From assembly GCF_013282155.1 (NCBI RefSeq), contig NZ_BLWI01000005.1, positions 186,001 through 250,000 of the forward strand: a stretch of DNA of 64,000 nt, in the 5' to 3' direction. This stretch comes from Sulfitobacter sp. HGT1. GTDB lineage: Bacteria > Pseudomonadota > Alphaproteobacteria > Rhodobacterales > Rhodobacteraceae. Below, in pieces: positions 15,679 to 21,940 of the stretch. The translations under genes were made by a program, and so were the position numbers. Each line of letters starts with the position of its first letter. Position 1 is the stretch's first letter. Below the pieces are notes generated by a model that saw only the letters and a program-made list of their open reading frames with translations, was not told the DNA's origin and searched no databases.

Positions 15679-18600
15679 ATGGAGCGATCGATTTTTTCCT
15701 TTATATGGAAATATTCCAGCCGAGATCAGATTGTTCTATTGATCCTGACGCTTGTCACCTTCCCCTTCTTGTACATCACACTCGAACTGCCCAAGCGCAT
15801 TATCAACGATGCGATCGGTGCTGAGTCGAGCGTGATCGACATCTTTGGCTTTGAAATGTCACAGGTGCAGTTCCTTTTTACCCTGTGTTTTGCCTATCTG
15901 GCGTCGGTGCTGGTGCACGGTCTGATGAAGATGCGGTTGAACACAATGAAAGGTGTCCTGTCAGAGCGGCTTTTGCGGCGGTTCCGGTATCAGTTGATAT
16001 CCCGCATGATGCGGTTTCCGCGCAGCTATTATGACAACACCAGCCAGGGCGAACTGGTATCCATGGTCACCTCAGAAGCCGAGCCGATGGGTGGTCTGAT
16101 GGGGGATGCTGTCGCCCAGCCCGTGTTCCAGGCCGGGCAAATGCTGATTATTCTGCTGTTTTTGTTCATTCAGTCGTTCTGGTTCGGCTTGGCGGGTGTG
16201 GCACTGATCCCCTTGCAGGCCTATCTGATCCCGATGCTGCAACGGCAGATCAACCAGCTGAACAAGGCGCGGATCAACGAGGTGCGTGCCCTGTCCTCCG
16301 AGATCGGGGAAACCGCGGCTGGCATCACCGATTTGCGCACGAACGGCGGGTGGCGTTTCAGACTGGCCAAGTTCACGGACCGTCTGGGTGCGTTGTTCAT
16401 CATCCGCTTTCAGATCTACCAGAAAAAGTTTTTCATGAAGTTTCTGAATAACTTTATCACCCAGCTTACGCCGTTCTTCTTTTATGCGGTGGGCGGCTAT
16501 CTGGTGATCGCCGGCAACATCACTGTTGGTGCCCTTGTCGCGGCGCTTGCCGCCTACAAAGATCTGTCGAACCCGTGGAAAGAATTGCTGACCTATTACA
16601 ACGAAACGCAGGACATGGCCATTCGCTGGGAAATTGTCATCGAGCGTTTTGCCCCGCGCAACATGATCCCTGAACGCCTGTTCGAAGGGGAACCTGAGGA
16701 GATTCCGCATCTTAAGGGACCCATCAACCTTAATCATGTCACTGTGCGTAGCGCCGATGGAAATCTGGTGCTGGATGACATTGATATCGACATTCCCATG
16801 GGCGCGCGTGTGGCCATCCAGATTCCCAATCAGGTGGAGCGTACGGCGATGGCCGAGTTGCTGACCCGAGAGATCAGCCCGACCCATGGTACAATCAAAA
16901 TAGCAGGTCACGATCTGGCCGAACTGCATCAGGCCGTCCTTGCGGCGCGGATCGGCTATGCCCATGCACAGCCCTATCTGTTCAAGGGAACAATCGGTGA
17001 AAACCTTTTGATGTCCCTGCGGACCAGCCCCAAGACGGTGCTTTGGGACCCCGAGAAAAAGGATATGGGGGCGATTGAAACGCTTCGCGCAGGCAACAGC
17101 CCCGACAGCACGCGGGTAGATTGGCTGGACCCCGGACTGGCAGATCTGAATTCGCCCGAGGATGTTAATAACTGGTGGTACGAGCTGGTCAAAGCCATCG
17201 GGACCGATGAATTGATGTTCCGGCGTATGGTTGTGGACCGGATGGACCCGAAAGAGCGTCCGGCGCTGGCTGAAAAGATCGTTGGTTTGCGGGACGAAAT
17301 CTATGAAAAGCTGAAAGAACGCGGGCTTGATAAGGCCATTCACCGGTTTGACCCGGACGAGTTCAACCCGTCGATGGCTTTGGGGGGCAACTTGATGTTT
17401 GCGTCTCCGATATATGATATTTCGCAAACGGTGCTGGCTTCGGAACGCAGCTTTCTTGCGATGATCTTTGATCTGGGTCTTGCAGAACAGGGCATCGCGA
17501 TTTCCCAGACGCTGGTCGAAACCTTGCACCAGACCTTTGGGCGCGATGGTACCGATCACCCGCTTTTTACCGCTTTGGGGATCGACGAAGAGCTCTACGA
17601 GCGATTGGTCGACATCGCCTTGCGCCGCCGCAACGACGGGGACGGGGCGCTGACCGAAGACGAATTTTCGCTGCTTTTGACCGTGCCATTCGCCTTTACA
17701 GCCGAGCAAATCGGCCCGGCATTCCCCGAGACGTTCAAGAGCGAAATCTTGGAAATTCGCAAAAAGCAGGGTCGCGCCATGCGCGAGAAAACCAAAGATA
17801 TGTTCATCCCCATTGCGCCGCAAACCTATCTGCCGCGTTTGTCCATTCTGGAAAACGCGCTGTATGGGCGGATATCCAAGGTTGCGGGGCTACAGGCCGA
17901 TCTGGTGATGGATGTCGTGTCGGATGTGTTCAGGAAACATAATCTGCAACAAGAAGTGACGAGCAATGTGTTCGATCTGCCGACCAACATTGGCGGGTCG
18001 AATATTTCGAACGTATTTCAGGAAAGGGCAGCGTTCAGCCGCGCCGCGATGAAGAGACCGGACATATTGGTGTTGAACCAGTCGCTGGCCGGGCATGACG
18101 CACAAAGCCTGTCCAGGTTGCGCGACAGGCTTAGCGCCCTGCTGCCGGATACAACTCAGATCTATCTTGATTCCAGTTTCTCGCGGCCCGAGGATTTCGA
18201 CATGTTCATCGAGATGAAAGGGGGACGCATCGATGGCATGGCCCAGATTGACGCGCCGCATGACGATGACAGCATTTCAGACGATCTGCGCCGCAAGTTG
18301 CAAATTGTTTCTCATAATGCGCTGTTCGGAGATCTTGACCCTCGCAACCAGCGGCTTTTGGCTTTTGCGGCACAATGGTTTCCCGTGGAGAAAGACCAGA
18401 CGATCTTTCATCAGGGGGACCGGCCCGATGCCGTGTATCTGTGCCTGTCGGGCACCGGCGAATTGTTCTGGAAGGACGAAAGCGGCAAAAGGCACCATAT
18501 ATCGACCGTTAAAAAAGGCCGCCTGATCGGCGATCTTGCCGTGATCCTGAATGACCCGCGCCAGTTTGATTTTGTGGCCCTCGAGGATAGCAAGTTTCTA

Positions 18601-18777
18601 CGGATAGATGCGGATCAGTTCCGGTCGGTCATTGAGGATGACAGGGTCATCTTGATGAGCTTGCTCAAGACCGTTTCATCGCATTTGTCGAATGCGACCG
18701 ATCTGCTGCGTGCCGCGTCTGTCGACATTCCGCGGGGCGCTGAACAGCGGCAACCGACCAAAGGGGAAAGCAGTTGA
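15679..18777 (+). CDS. ABC-transporter-like protein with dead ATPase motifs, large insertion and C-terminal cNMP-binding domain
   Basis: 1032 residues. Residues 1-320 form a type-I exporter membrane domain (FRYQLISRMMRFPRSYYD, GELVSMVTSEAEPMGGLMGD). The nucleotide domain begins near 345, but every catalytic motif is lost: the Walker A position reads IQIPNQVERTA (about 380-390, Lys replaced by Arg, no glycines), LSGGQ reads ISNVF (776-780), Walker B reads ILVLNQ (Asp and Glu replaced by Asn and Gln) and the switch His is gone (YLDSSFSRPEDF). A Q-loop-like QPYLFKGTIGENL (431-443) is followed by about 270 extra residues. Residues 885-1010 are a cyclic-nucleotide-binding domain (IFHQGDRPDAVYLCLSGTGEL, GRLIGDLAVILNDPR). 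Coupled to the CPBP protease downstream. Function unknown; ATP hydrolysis is unlikely. Confidence 0.9.
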   Translation: MERSIFSFIWKYSSRDQIVLLILTLVTFPFLYITLELPKRIINDAIGAESSVIDIFGFEMSQVQFLFTLCFAYLASVLVHGLMKMRLNTMKGVLSERLLRRFRYQLISRMMRFPRSYYDNTSQGELVSMVTSEAEPMGGLMGDAVAQPVFQAGQMLIILLFLFIQSFWFGLAGVALIPLQAYLIPMLQRQINQLNKARINEVRALSSEIGETAAGITDLRTNGGWRFRLAKFTDRLGALFIIRFQIYQKKFFMKFLNNFITQLTPFFFYAVGGYLVIAGNITVGALVAALAAYKDLSNPWKELLTYYNETQDMAIRWEIVIERFAPRNMIPERLFEGEPEEIPHLKGPINLNHVTVRSADGNLVLDDIDIDIPMGARVAIQIPNQVERTAMAELLTREISPTHGTIKIAGHDLAELHQAVLAARIGYAHAQPYLFKGTIGENLLMSLRTSPKTVLWDPEKKDMGAIETLRAGNSPDSTRVDWLDPGLADLNSPEDVNNWWYELVKAIGTDELMFRRMVVDRMDPKERPALAEKIVGLRDEIYEKLKERGLDKAIHRFDPDEFNPSMALGGNLMFASPIYDISQTVLASERSFLAMIFDLGLAEQGIAISQTLVETLHQTFGRDGTDHPLFTALGIDEELYERLVDIALRRRNDGDGALTEDEFSLLLTVPFAFTAEQIGPAFPETFKSEILEIRKKQGRAMREKTKDMFIPIAPQTYLPRLSILENALYGRISKVAGLQADLVMDVVSDVFRKHNLQQEVTSNVFDLPTNIGGSNISNVFQERAAFSRAAMKRPDILVLNQSLAGHDAQSLSRLRDRLSALLPDTTQIYLDSSFSRPEDFDMFIEMKGGRIDGMAQIDAPHDDDSISDDLRRKLQIVSHNALFGDLDPRNQRLLAFAAQWFPVEKDQTIFHQGDRPDAVYLCLSGTGELFWKDESGKRHHISTVKKGRLIGDLAVILNDPRQFDFVALEDSKFLRIDADQFRSVIEDDRVILMSLLKTVSSHLSNATDLLRAASVDIPRGAEQRQPTKGESS

Positions 18778-19667
18778 TGGACCGCTATGCCGCACATCGT
18801 GACTTTATCGCCCCGGCTGTCCCAACCGCCGCGCTGTGGCGGGTCTTTGTGGGGTTTCTGGCGGCTTCGGCGGTTTATCTGCTGCTGAACAATCTGTTTT
18901 TCACGTTGGTTTTCAACCTGCTGGGGTCGCAGGATGGCAGTTTTTATGATGACTTGCTGACCGGCAAGACGCCCGTCGCGATGTTTATTCTATTGGGCAG
19001 CTTTGGCCTGATGACGGTGGGTGTCGTGCTGGTGGCACGGGTTCTGCACAAACGGTCACTTTCCAGCCTGATCGGGCCAATGTCCCTGGCTGTGCCGCAG
19101 TTTGGCATGGTTGTGCGCATGTTGGTGATCGTGGGGGCGATCACCTTTGTGCTGCCACCTTGGGGCTTTGGCGAAGACAATGTTTCAAACATGCCATTGG
19201 GCAAATGGGTGCTGCTGCTTCCGCTATCGCTGGTGGCTGTATTCATTCAGGTCAGCGCCGAGGAAATCGTGTTCAGGGGCTATGTTCAACAGCAGCTTGC
19301 GGCACGTTTCAAATCGCCGCTTGTGTGGATGGTGCTGCCGTCGGTTCTGTTTGCGCTTGGTCACTACTTGCCCGAGGAAGCGGGCGAAAATGCCGTGACG
19401 ATTGCGCTTTGGGCTGCGGTATTTGGCATTCTGATGGCGGACCTGACGGCGCGTGCGGGGTCCCTTGGGCCTGCGATTGCGGTTCACTTTTGCAACAATG
19501 TGACGGCGATCCTGATCACGTCCCTGCCGGATAATTTGTCTGGCCTTGCTTTGTATGTGACACCTTTCGGCATGGAGGACACCGAGGCGCTGCGCGCATG
19601 GCTGCCGGTGGATTTCGCGCTGATGTTTGTCAGTTGGCTCGCGGCAAGGCTCGCGATCCGCCGTTGA
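18777..19667 (+). CDS. CPBP-family intramembrane metalloprotease
   Basis: 296 residues from the ATG at 18777, which shares one base with the preceding stop (TGATG); a TTG at 18774 is an alternative. About eight membrane helices. The CPBP/CAAX-protease motifs are complete: AEEIVFRGYV (E162, E163, R167), LFALGHYLPEE (H196) and AVHFCNN (H237, N241), so an active zinc-type or glutamate intramembrane protease is expected. Bacterial relatives process lipidated or membrane peptides or act in self-immunity. Tight coupling to the pseudo-ABC/cNMP protein suggests the two act together, which is inference. Confidence 0.88.
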   Translation: MDRYAAHRDFIAPAVPTAALWRVFVGFLAASAVYLLLNNLFFTLVFNLLGSQDGSFYDDLLTGKTPVAMFILLGSFGLMTVGVVLVARVLHKRSLSSLIGPMSLAVPQFGMVVRMLVIVGAITFVLPPWGFGEDNVSNMPLGKWVLLLPLSLVAVFIQVSAEEIVFRGYVQQQLAARFKSPLVWMVLPSVLFALGHYLPEEAGENAVTIALWAAVFGILMADLTARAGSLGPAIAVHFCNNVTAILITSLPDNLSGLALYVTPFGMEDTEALRAWLPVDFALMFVSWLAARLAIRR

Positions 19668-19724: not shown

Positions 19725-20669
19725 ATGAACTGGATCAATAACTACGTTCGCCCACGCATCAATTCGATCTTTTCGCGTCGCGAAACACCGGATAATCTTT
19801 GGACGAAATGCGAAGAATGCGGAACCATGTTGTTCCACCGCGAGGTGTCGAACAACCTGAATGTTTGCACGAGCTGCGGCCATCACATGGCGATCACCCC
19901 CCGCGAGCGGTTTTTGGCGCTATTCGACGGCGGTATTTTCACCGAAGTTAAGGTTCCGGCACCGGTCACGGACCCTTTGCATTTCCGCGATCAAAAGAAA
20001 TATCCGGATCGTTTGAAAGCAGCCCAAAAACAAACGGGCGAAGCCGAAGCGATGCTGGTTGCCACCGGTGAAATCGGACGCACGCCGATCGTTGCTGCCG
20101 CGCAAGACTTTTCCTTTATGGCGGGGTCCATGGGTATGTATGTGGGCAATGCGATCATTGCCGCCGCCCAAGAGGCCGTTAAGCTGAAACGCCCGCTGAT
20201 CCTGTTTTCCGCCGCCGGTGGCGCGCGGATGCAAGAAGGTATCCTGAGCCTGATGCAAATGCCGCGCACGACCATTGCCGTGCAGATGCTGAAAGAAGCC
20301 GGATTGCCCTATATCGTGGTGTTGACCCACCCCACGACCGGCGGCGTCACGGCCAGCTATGCCATGCTGGGCGACGTTCATATTGCCGAGCCGAATGCGC
20401 TGATCTGCTTTGCCGGGCCACGCGTCATTGAACAAACGATCCGCGAAAAGCTGCCCGAAGGCTTCCAGCGGGCGGAATACCTGTTGGATCATGGCATGTT
20501 GGACCGCGTGACCCCGCGCCCCAAGATGCGCGACGAGTTGATCAACATCACCCGGATGCTGCTGAGGCTGCCGCCTGCGGTGCGGGGCGATCTGCCCGCG
20601 CCCACAGAAGGTGGCGATGTACCCCATGCATTGGCATCGGACGACAAGGCAAGTACACCAGCAAAATGA
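19725..20669 (+). CDS. accD: Acetyl-CoA carboxylase carboxyltransferase subunit beta
   Basis: 314 residues from the ATG at 19725 with AGAGG about 6 bases upstream; the open frame begins earlier but lacks a ribosome site. The N-terminal zinc ribbon has C29, C32, C48 and C51 (KCEECGTMLF, NVCTSCGHH). The crotonase-fold carboxyltransferase core shows GSMGMYVGNAIIAAAQEA, SAAGGARMQEGILSLMQM and TTGGVTASYAMLGDVHIAEP. It carries out the second half-reaction of malonyl-CoA synthesis with AccA. It overlaps folC by 4 bp, the usual accD-folC arrangement. Confidence 0.97.
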   Translation: MNWINNYVRPRINSIFSRRETPDNLWTKCEECGTMLFHREVSNNLNVCTSCGHHMAITPRERFLALFDGGIFTEVKVPAPVTDPLHFRDQKKYPDRLKAAQKQTGEAEAMLVATGEIGRTPIVAAAQDFSFMAGSMGMYVGNAIIAAAQEAVKLKRPLILFSAAGGARMQEGILSLMQMPRTTIAVQMLKEAGLPYIVVLTHPTTGGVTASYAMLGDVHIAEPNALICFAGPRVIEQTIREKLPEGFQRAEYLLDHGMLDRVTPRPKMRDELINITRMLLRLPPAVRGDLPAPTEGGDVPHALASDDKASTPAK

Positions 20670-21940
20670 CGCAACAGACATCTGATGCTGTGCTGGCGCG
20701 CATGATGGCGCTGCACCCCAAGATCATTGATCTGACCCTTGACCGGATGTGGCGGCTGCTGGATGCTTTGGGCAATCCGCAAAACACCCTGCCGCCCGTG
20801 ATCCATATCGCGGGCACCAATGGCAAGGGGTCGACGCAGGCAATGATCCGCGCCGGTTTGGAGGCAGCAGGGCACCGGGTTCATGCCTATACCTCGCCGC
20901 ATCTGGCGCGTTTTCACGAACGCATCAGGGTGGCCGGTGATCTGATTACCGAGCCTGATCTGACCGACGTGCTGGACGAATGTTATGACGCCAATAATGG
21001 CGGCAACATTACGTATTTCGAGATCACGACATGCGCGGCGCTGCTCGCTTTTTCCCGCAGCCCTGCGGATTATACCTTGCTTGAGGTGGGTCTGGGGGGC
21101 CGTTTGGATGCCACCAATGTGGTTGAAAAACCGGCCCTTACCGTGATCACGCCGGTGTCGATCGACCATCAGCAGTATCTTGGGGATACTCTGGCCCAGA
21201 TCGCGGGCGAAAAGGCAGGGATCATCAAACGTGGCGTGCCGTGCGTTGTTGGCCCCCAACAAGAAGAAGCGATGGACGTGATCGAAGCCGAGGCACTGCG
21301 TCACCACGCGCCGCTGTTGGCCTATGGCCAGCACTGGCATGTCGGGCAGGAAGCCGGGCGTATGGTGTATCAAGACGAACAAGGCTTGCTTGACCTTCCC
21401 AAACCGAATTTGCTGGGGGCACATCAGATCAGCAACGCCGGTGCGGCCCTTGCGGCCTTGCGTCACCTTGGTGTAGCGAATGATCATTGCGAGGCGGCAG
21501 TTACAGGCGCGCAATGGCCTGCACGCATGCAGCGTCTGAAAACCGGCCCATTGGCTGAAGCTGCAGCACAGGCGGAACTTTGGCTGGATGGGGGGCACAA
21601 CCCCGCCGCTGGCGAGGCGATCGCAGGTCTGCTCGGCACGCTGCCCAAGCGCCCGACCTATCTGATCTGCGGGATGTTGAATACCAAGGACATTTCCGGC
21701 TATTTGCGCCCGCTTGCTGCGCAGGCGGAAAAGTTGATTGCCGTTTCAATCCCCGGAGAAGCGGCAACACTGCCCGCGCATGAGACTGCCCAGGCTGCTC
21801 GTGCCGTTGGTATGAACGCGGACGAGGCAGCATCGGTGCAATCCGCCCTTGCAGATATCCTTGCGATTGATCCATCTGCGCGGGTTTTGATCTGCGGGTC
21901 ATTGTACCTTGCCGGCAGCGTTTTGCGGGAAAACGGTTAG
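20666..21940 (+). CDS. folC: Folylpolyglutamate synthase / dihydrofolate synthase
   Basis: 424 residues. Mur-ligase-type fold: P-loop HIAGTNGKGSTQAMI near residue 50, YTSPHLARFHERI, the Mg-binding region LEVGLGGRLDATNVV, SIDHQQYLGDTLAQIAGEKAGIIK and the C-terminal LDGGHNPAAGEAIAGLL. It makes dihydrofolate from dihydropteroate and adds glutamates to folates. The start ATG overlaps the accD stop as ATGA. No downstream co-directional gene follows closely. Confidence 0.96.
   Translation: MTQQTSDAVLARMMALHPKIIDLTLDRMWRLLDALGNPQNTLPPVIHIAGTNGKGSTQAMIRAGLEAAGHRVHAYTSPHLARFHERIRVAGDLITEPDLTDVLDECYDANNGGNITYFEITTCAALLAFSRSPADYTLLEVGLGGRLDATNVVEKPALTVITPVSIDHQQYLGDTLAQIAGEKAGIIKRGVPCVVGPQQEEAMDVIEAEALRHHAPLLAYGQHWHVGQEAGRMVYQDEQGLLDLPKPNLLGAHQISNAGAALAALRHLGVANDHCEAAVTGAQWPARMQRLKTGPLAEAAAQAELWLDGGHNPAAGEAIAGLLGTLPKRPTYLICGMLNTKDISGYLRPLAAQAEKLIAVSIPGEAATLPAHETAQAARAVGMNADEAASVQSALADILAIDPSARVLICGSLYLAGSVLRENG

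Follow-up and report, generated by a model that had tools for sequence, protein, structure and literature searches.

Two described systems come closest to the gene analysed here. HetC of Nostoc PCC 7120 is, according to the excerpted text of one paper, a peptidase-containing ATP-binding cassette (ABC) exporter with an N-terminal cyclic-nucleotide-binding (cNMP) domain; this domain is essential, ppGpp binds in vitro to its N-terminal part, and the catalytic ATPase glutamate is required (PMC10986499). SbmA and BacA (SLiPT) are described, in an excerpt of another paper, as proton-driven peptide transporters with the membrane fold of ABC exporters (PMC13316013). We analysed a 64,000-nucleotide stretch of Sulfitobacter sp. 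HGT1 (contig NZ_BLWI01000005.1, positions 186,001 to 250,000; hereafter the window, whose own numbering is used), in which a plus-strand gene encodes an ABC-exporter-like protein of 1032 amino acids (aa) with a degenerate nucleotide-binding domain (NBD) and a C-terminal cNMP domain.

ABC transporters are defined by the ATP-driven closure of their NBDs, and here a large conserved family keeps the architecture while whole clades of it are without the chemistry. Catalytic residues are lost across clades, the gene is under purifying selection, the membrane domain is conserved, and so is a cNMP protein that is either fused to the scaffold or encoded beside it. From these sequences we hypothesize, with moderate confidence, that in this family of ABC exporter fold the NBD would act, in clades A and B if not more widely, as a non-hydrolysing adaptor that joins a CRP-type sensor to the membrane domain. 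The window protein belongs to clade A.

Domain architecture and loss of the ATPase motifs

The gene and its parts lie as follows.

15679..18777, + strand: full-length open reading frame (ORF) of the clade A ABC-exporter-like protein, 1032 aa, with degenerate, insert-split NBD and C-terminal cNMP domain
15679..16668, + strand: exporter membrane domain, residues 1-330, the best conserved part (Pfam ABC_membrane, invariant positions, fold match to type IV exporters)
16711..17016, + strand: N-terminal half of the degenerate NBD, residues 345-446 (Pfam, alignment to a solved exporter, fold match)
16816..16848, + strand: former Walker A, IQIPNQVERTA, residues 380-390 (alignment, motif tally)
17017..17886, + strand: insert of ~290 aa, residues 447-736, from the Q-loop region to the signature region (family conservation)
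17887..18243, + strand: C-terminal half of the NBD, residues 737-855, with signature, Walker B and switch histidine lost (alignment, motif tally)
18076..18081, + strand: former Walker B acids, now Asn800-Gln801 (motif tally)
18274..18708, + strand: CRP-type cNMP domain, residues ~866-1010 (PF00027 match, cassette residues)

The first-pass annotation had proposed an ABC-exporter-like protein with dead motifs, and the ORF, the alignment and Pfam bear this out: the Walker A lysine, the Q-loop glutamine, the LSGGQ signature, both Walker B acids and the switch histidine are all missing. In an alignment with a solved exporter, VAIQIPNQVERTAM occupies the place of VAIVGPTGAGKTTL, GGSNISNVFQER that of the signature region and DILVLNQ that of Walker B. 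The motifs were tallied in 186 full-length homologues, i.e., 92 of clade A (including the window protein), 32 of clade B, 12 distant Rhodobacteraceae (group D), 47 from other families (far relatives) and 3 others; sequences shorter than 840 aa, those with identical last 300 residues, and the repeats L071 and L156-L159 were excluded. The Walker A lysine is absent from all clade A and B sequences (arginine in 81 of 92 and in 32 of 32, respectively) and from all 12 of group D, and it is present in 23/47 far relatives. The catalytic glutamate of Walker B is found in none of clades A and B, in one D sequence and in 21/47 far relatives. The Walker B aspartate, an asparagine in the window protein, is retained by 68/92 clade A sequences. 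No Q-loop glutamine occurs in A, B or D (far 9/47) and no switch histidine in B or D (far 13/47), and the six commonest letters at the latter position in clade A, which cover 87 of its 92 sequences, do not include histidine. At the signature position the window protein reads ISNVF and clade A mostly LPxxF or LPxxx in place of LSGGQ, and the glycine loop of Walker A is gone in both clades. Lysine and serine occur together with Asp-Glu in just three of the 186 homologues (L199, L200 and L229, all of one family, f156).

Loss of every ATPase motif could also mark a decaying pseudogene or a recent mutant, in which case close homologues with intact Walker A and B might be expected; none was found in clades A and B, whose 92 and 32 sequences are all without the Walker A lysine and the Walker B glutamate. 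The frame is open at full length, and against Sulfitobacter marinus (83% identical) the ratio of nonsynonymous to synonymous substitution rates (dN/dS) amounts to 0.083 overall and stays under 0.15 in every computable domain, so selection on the gene is purifying. Judged from the alignments, the motif loss is clade-wide and not a recent mutation. Because of this and the purifying selection, both readings were rejected, and we give them practically no credence.

The far relatives bear on a different alternative, in which ATP would still be bound in a structural or regulatory role, but not hydrolysed, and the family would read cNMP and ATP/ADP levels jointly. The position of the Walker A Ser/Thr is Glu or Asp in 38/47 of them and that of the Walker B Asp is Asn in 28/47, which together with the lysines kept looks systematic rather than like random decay, and the frequent Lys-to-Arg change of clade A fits as well. 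The glycine loop itself, however, is gone in clades A and B, and we consider joint reading of this kind rather unlikely. Far relatives (e.g. L160-L185) combine both exchanges, as if the acid had switched sides of the nucleotide site, and the copies of Rhizobium etli and R. leguminosarum read GPNGSGAEAF and FNRP at the motif sites.

Pfam located ABC_membrane at residues 41-291, a weak ABC_tran at 365-460 and cNMP_binding at 903-987, and no whole-protein model stood among the Pfam and NCBIfam matches listed (for NCBIfam, the best 25 of 77). The transmembrane domain is that of a type IV (ABCB-like) exporter, and fold comparison and alignment match it and the overall NBD fold to this class. Constraint is strongest in the membrane domain, which holds 50 of the 62 positions that are invariant in a 16-sequence alignment. 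Four loci (L047:4385-5782, L048:5108-6412, L049:505-1719 and L050:4935-5993) encode the membrane domain only, the NBD being absent, with ~36-42% identity to residues 1-325; since these relatives consist of little else, the domain can persist without an NBD. About 0.5 kb downstream in L050 lies a cyclase gene with a weak HNOBA match, and in L047 and L048 the following ORF carries a CxxCH motif and looks, by eye, like a c-type cytochrome.

The insert that splits the NBD (residues ~447-736) is common to the family and was overlooked in the first-pass annotation. Its structure was predicted with a local confidence (pLDDT) of 88.5; the insert alone found no match in the PDB at E<=0.001 (best E 0.39), which is no proof of a new fold. 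Two stretches of the window, 17362-17403 (FNPSMALGGNLMFA) and 17827-17868 (YLPRLSILENALYG), are alike and echo the ENLL motif that follows the Q-loop. Because of these ENLL-like stretches the insert may stem from an internal duplication; comparison of its middle with its last part by hhalign gave P 0.00016, but a probability of only 50%.

Predicted nucleotide sensing and candidate partners

The predicted C-terminal cNMP domain was corroborated by a PF00027 match far above the cut-off (E 6.8e-19, 68.1 bits against 27.5). Its cassette holds Gly951-Asp952 and Arg961; we take the arginine to have the phosphate-cassette role and a Gly-Glu pair at the former site to bind ribose. The arginine is present in all 159 aligned cNMP domains. 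The pair is Gly-Asp instead of Gly-Glu in 95/95 domains of the A group (here including L054, L055 and L074), and Gly-Glu in 29/29 separate, 32/32 clade B and 3/3 f156 domains. The universal arginine and the Gly-Asp pair suggest that the clade A sensor is probably competent but altered.

In the 32 D and far loci a standalone cNMP protein is encoded just downstream of the ABC-like gene in 28 and fused to it in one (L229). The separate protein has ~150 aa and is usually encoded on the same strand; it follows in 10/12 D loci and in 18/20 far loci, in 17 of the latter within ~100 bp and in one at 616 bp. Three Rhizobium records hold the same pair and an Azospirillum record a fusion. As most distant loci carry the sensor in one of these forms, their sequences indicate that the link of the ABC-like scaffold to nucleotide sensing is old.

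On Rhizobium plasmids (L232, L234, L235) the pair stands between ABC permease/glycosyltransferase genes, which are redA and redB in R. etli CIAT 652, and cyoABCD. Glycosyltransferases related to the redB-like protein of R. leguminosarum lie within ~4 kb in 8/38 D and far neighbourhoods (L039, L042, L043, L219, L221, L224, L227 and, weakly, L225), several of them on the other strand, and could hint at the substrate.

A conserved cyclase partner was also sought. Cyclase-like matches were near only 3/32 B and 1/12 D loci, and a Pfam cyclase domain was found in the B-locus genes of L071 (own genome) and L066 and in the D gene of L044, not in L135; the candidate was dropped for the small number of loci. 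In the own genome (G000:C15; L071, L211) both class III cyclase genes found sit on the 34-kb contig of the clade B paralogue, one of them following the paralogue in the same orientation at a distance of ~1.8 kb.

This paralogue, 47% identical to the window protein, lies on another contig, and the scores mark all four further, weaker matches in the own genome as ABC exporters. A full-length clade A gene occurs in 36 genomes (family-level sample plus G193), and all 36 also hold a B-type gene, one of them divergent. In 35 it was assigned by score among the two candidates scored per genome, and seven of these B genes were fetched and compared; in G055 a third, divergent copy is closest to B (43% identity). 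Twelve genomes have a B-type match without a full-length A gene, including G008, whose copy falls outside B in the tree, and G119, which has an A fragment. The tally compares related species and sets aside genomes with partial matches only (G017, G083, G220, and the A fragment of G119). The constant company of full-length A and a B-type gene is a hint that an A-B heteromer could exist.

Heterodimeric exporters with one degenerate half are common, and the window protein could be such a half, its ATP-competent partner being encoded elsewhere, for instance by one of the four weaker matches. Other ABC ATPase ORFs do lie in the fetched flanks of 9/97 A and 12/32 B loci, those of exporter size (at least 576 aa) being found 1.4 to 8.2 kb from the gene at seven B loci and at a single A locus, L056. 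No such gene, however, has a fixed place beside A or B in these flanks, and the co-occurring paralogue B likewise lacks the catalytic residues. Moreover, a composite site must combine Walker A and B from one half with the signature from the other, and the A half is without any of them. A partnership of this type therefore appears unlikely to us.

The CPBP neighbour and the distribution of the family

Two further features follow the ABC-like gene.

18777..19667, + strand: gene for a CPBP (Rce1-like) intramembrane protease (PF02517 match, motifs)
19725..21940, + strand: accD and folC, the conserved context of the CPBP gene (Pfam and NCBIfam matches, synteny)

The first-pass annotation had read the scaffold as a membrane sensor that controls this protease. 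It rightly noted that the two genes touch: the ATG of the CPBP frame shares its A with the TGA of the ABC-like gene, and this one-base overlap suggests co-translation. The protease is also apparently active, as far as its motifs tell, with a PF02517 match of 64.6 bits and the EE..R, F...H and H...N motifs in place. In an alignment of 87 CPBP rows, some of them duplicates, EE, R, F and the first His are conserved in 86, the remaining row having a gap; the second His is found in 83 (4 gaps) and the Asn in 82 (1 Asp, 4 gaps). At 83/97 clade A loci the CPBP gene comes next in the same orientation, the two genes being -8 to 74 bp apart. The share is 79/93 once identical loci are merged and 83/86 without the ten loci of a basal subclade and L114, which is cut inside the gene; the other clade A loci without CPBP are L091, L057 and L130.

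Conservation of the neighbour thus holds for most of clade A, but the gene is absent from all 32 clade B and all ten basal clade A loci. CPBP homologues are also commoner than the ABC-like family, occurring in 127/198 Rhodobacteraceae genomes versus 65/295. The partnership was tested by seeking the CPBP locus without the ABC-like gene among 18 CPBP loci (15 genomes without a family match, two with B only, and G193 with two family genes). accD and folC follow CPBP in all 18, and the ABC-like gene is absent before CPBP-accD-folC in 17, the exception being the clade A gene of G193 (L243). Because such loci exist, the protease partnership was dropped as the main mechanism, and we regard control of CPBP by the scaffold as improbable. 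In the simplest history the ABC-like gene would have entered an existing CPBP-accD-folC locus, and a single insertion followed by synteny accounts for the linkage. The pattern would look no different had the ABC-like gene been lost repeatedly; under both histories CPBP can do without that gene, and is probably a syntenic neighbour that predates the linkage rather than a dedicated partner. Some Rhodobacteraceae carry tandem CPBP gene pairs upstream of accD (L238:5260-7037 and others).

The family is widespread in Alphaproteobacteria. It was matched in 65 of the 295 genomes of the family-level sample (E<=1e-30) and, with the insert as probe, in 131 of 385 alphaproteobacterial genomes; the 31 matching genomes of the phylum-level sample of 398 are all Alphaproteobacteria. 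The best 80 of 565 confirmed stretches in a named collection are nearly all from Rhodobacterales. Five of these 80 (L121, L122, L123, L124, L132) are clade A copies on contigs of metagenome-assembled genomes labelled as Gammaproteobacteria (Granulosicoccus, Oceanospirillaceae), reflecting either horizontal transfer or mis-binned contigs. Plasmid records gave 344 matches, mainly in Rhizobium, Sinorhizobium and roseobacters. The tree was built by a quick method and its outgroup rows are long, one of them falling inside the family, so its root is unsure.

Proposed mechanism and comparison with known systems

In clades A and B at least, the NBD, enlarged by the ~290-aa insert, would serve as a non-hydrolysing structural adaptor. 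A ligand would bind the cNMP domain, which is part of the window protein but a protein of its own in most distant relatives, and shift the packing of the two NBD-like halves. The NBD-like part and the insert would relay this movement to the membrane domain, which would thereby open, close or set its alternating access. This suggests a pump or sensor that is switched by a small signal molecule and not driven by ATP. Gating by a ligand, the absence of ATP hydrolysis, and the identity of ligand and substrate are what we infer from the sequences. The membrane-sensor part of the first-pass annotation agrees with the clade-wide loss of ATPase residues and with the tie between nucleotide sensing and scaffold in most of the wider family, and its control of CPBP had to be given up.

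Several observations weigh against the adaptor mechanism. Far relatives keep part of the catalytic lysine, glutamate, glutamine and histidine residues, and, given these and the f156 sequences, some parts of the family may still bind or even hydrolyse ATP. The Glu-to-Asp change in the clade A cassette raises the chance that the ligand there may not be cAMP or cGMP. No cNMP gene is linked to the ABC-like gene at the distant loci L041 and L231, and that of L042 lies 4.4 kb away; cyclase genes stand near few loci, and other ABC ATPase ORFs occur in some flanks.

A bolder form of the proposal is tentative, and we think it possible but doubtful: a nucleotide second messenger, acting on a dedicated cNMP subunit, would gate a widespread alphaproteobacterial class of hydrolysis-free ABC exporter folds, in which the NBD would be a force-transmitting adaptor bearing a helical insert, and in roseobacters A and B would be the halves of an obligate heteromer that combines two kinds of cNMP sensor, one with a Gly-Asp and one with a Gly-Glu cassette. 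If the adaptor mechanism is true, a ligand other than ATP can drive or read out the ABC fold. The family would then be a testable direct target of bacterial nucleotide signalling that is no transcription factor, and its clades, at graded stages of decay, allow the transition away from ATP chemistry to be traced.

No description of this ABC-like family was found among the titles and abstract openings listed from the literature searched, which omits most subscription journals. Two of the listed papers name an opt operon, and the excerpted passages of PMC9603854 and PMC7950203 are unrelated to the family. HetC, as excerpted, resembles the window protein in linking an ABC exporter core to a cNMP domain. 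It differs by its C39 peptidase and its needed ATPase glutamate, whereas the window protein has lost the ATPase residues and shows no Pfam match to a C39 peptidase domain up to E 1; the window family also has an insert-split NBD, with the cNMP domain C-terminal or in a separate gene. The cyc_nuc_ocin proteins (TIGR03896) are associated with bacteriocin-type transport and have a cyanobacterial range. One standalone cNMP protein of the family matches this model weakly (E 2.9e-10, 40 bits against a cut-off of 161), and it differs in lying below the cut-off, in its single cNMP domain and in its partner. Type IV ABC exporters (MsbA, PCAT1, TmrAB, BmrA) share the folds of the membrane domain and, overall, of the NBD with the window protein, which departs from them by its missing catalytic motifs and the ~290-aa NBD insert. 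SbmA is not known to have an NBD, and no SbmA/BacA family match stood among the four Pfam families listed for the window protein, in which an NBD-like fold is present. In the excerpted account SbmA and BacA offer the likeness of an ABC exporter membrane fold that operates without ATP hydrolysis, and the window protein differs from them in that it keeps an NBD-like scaffold together with a nucleotide sensor.

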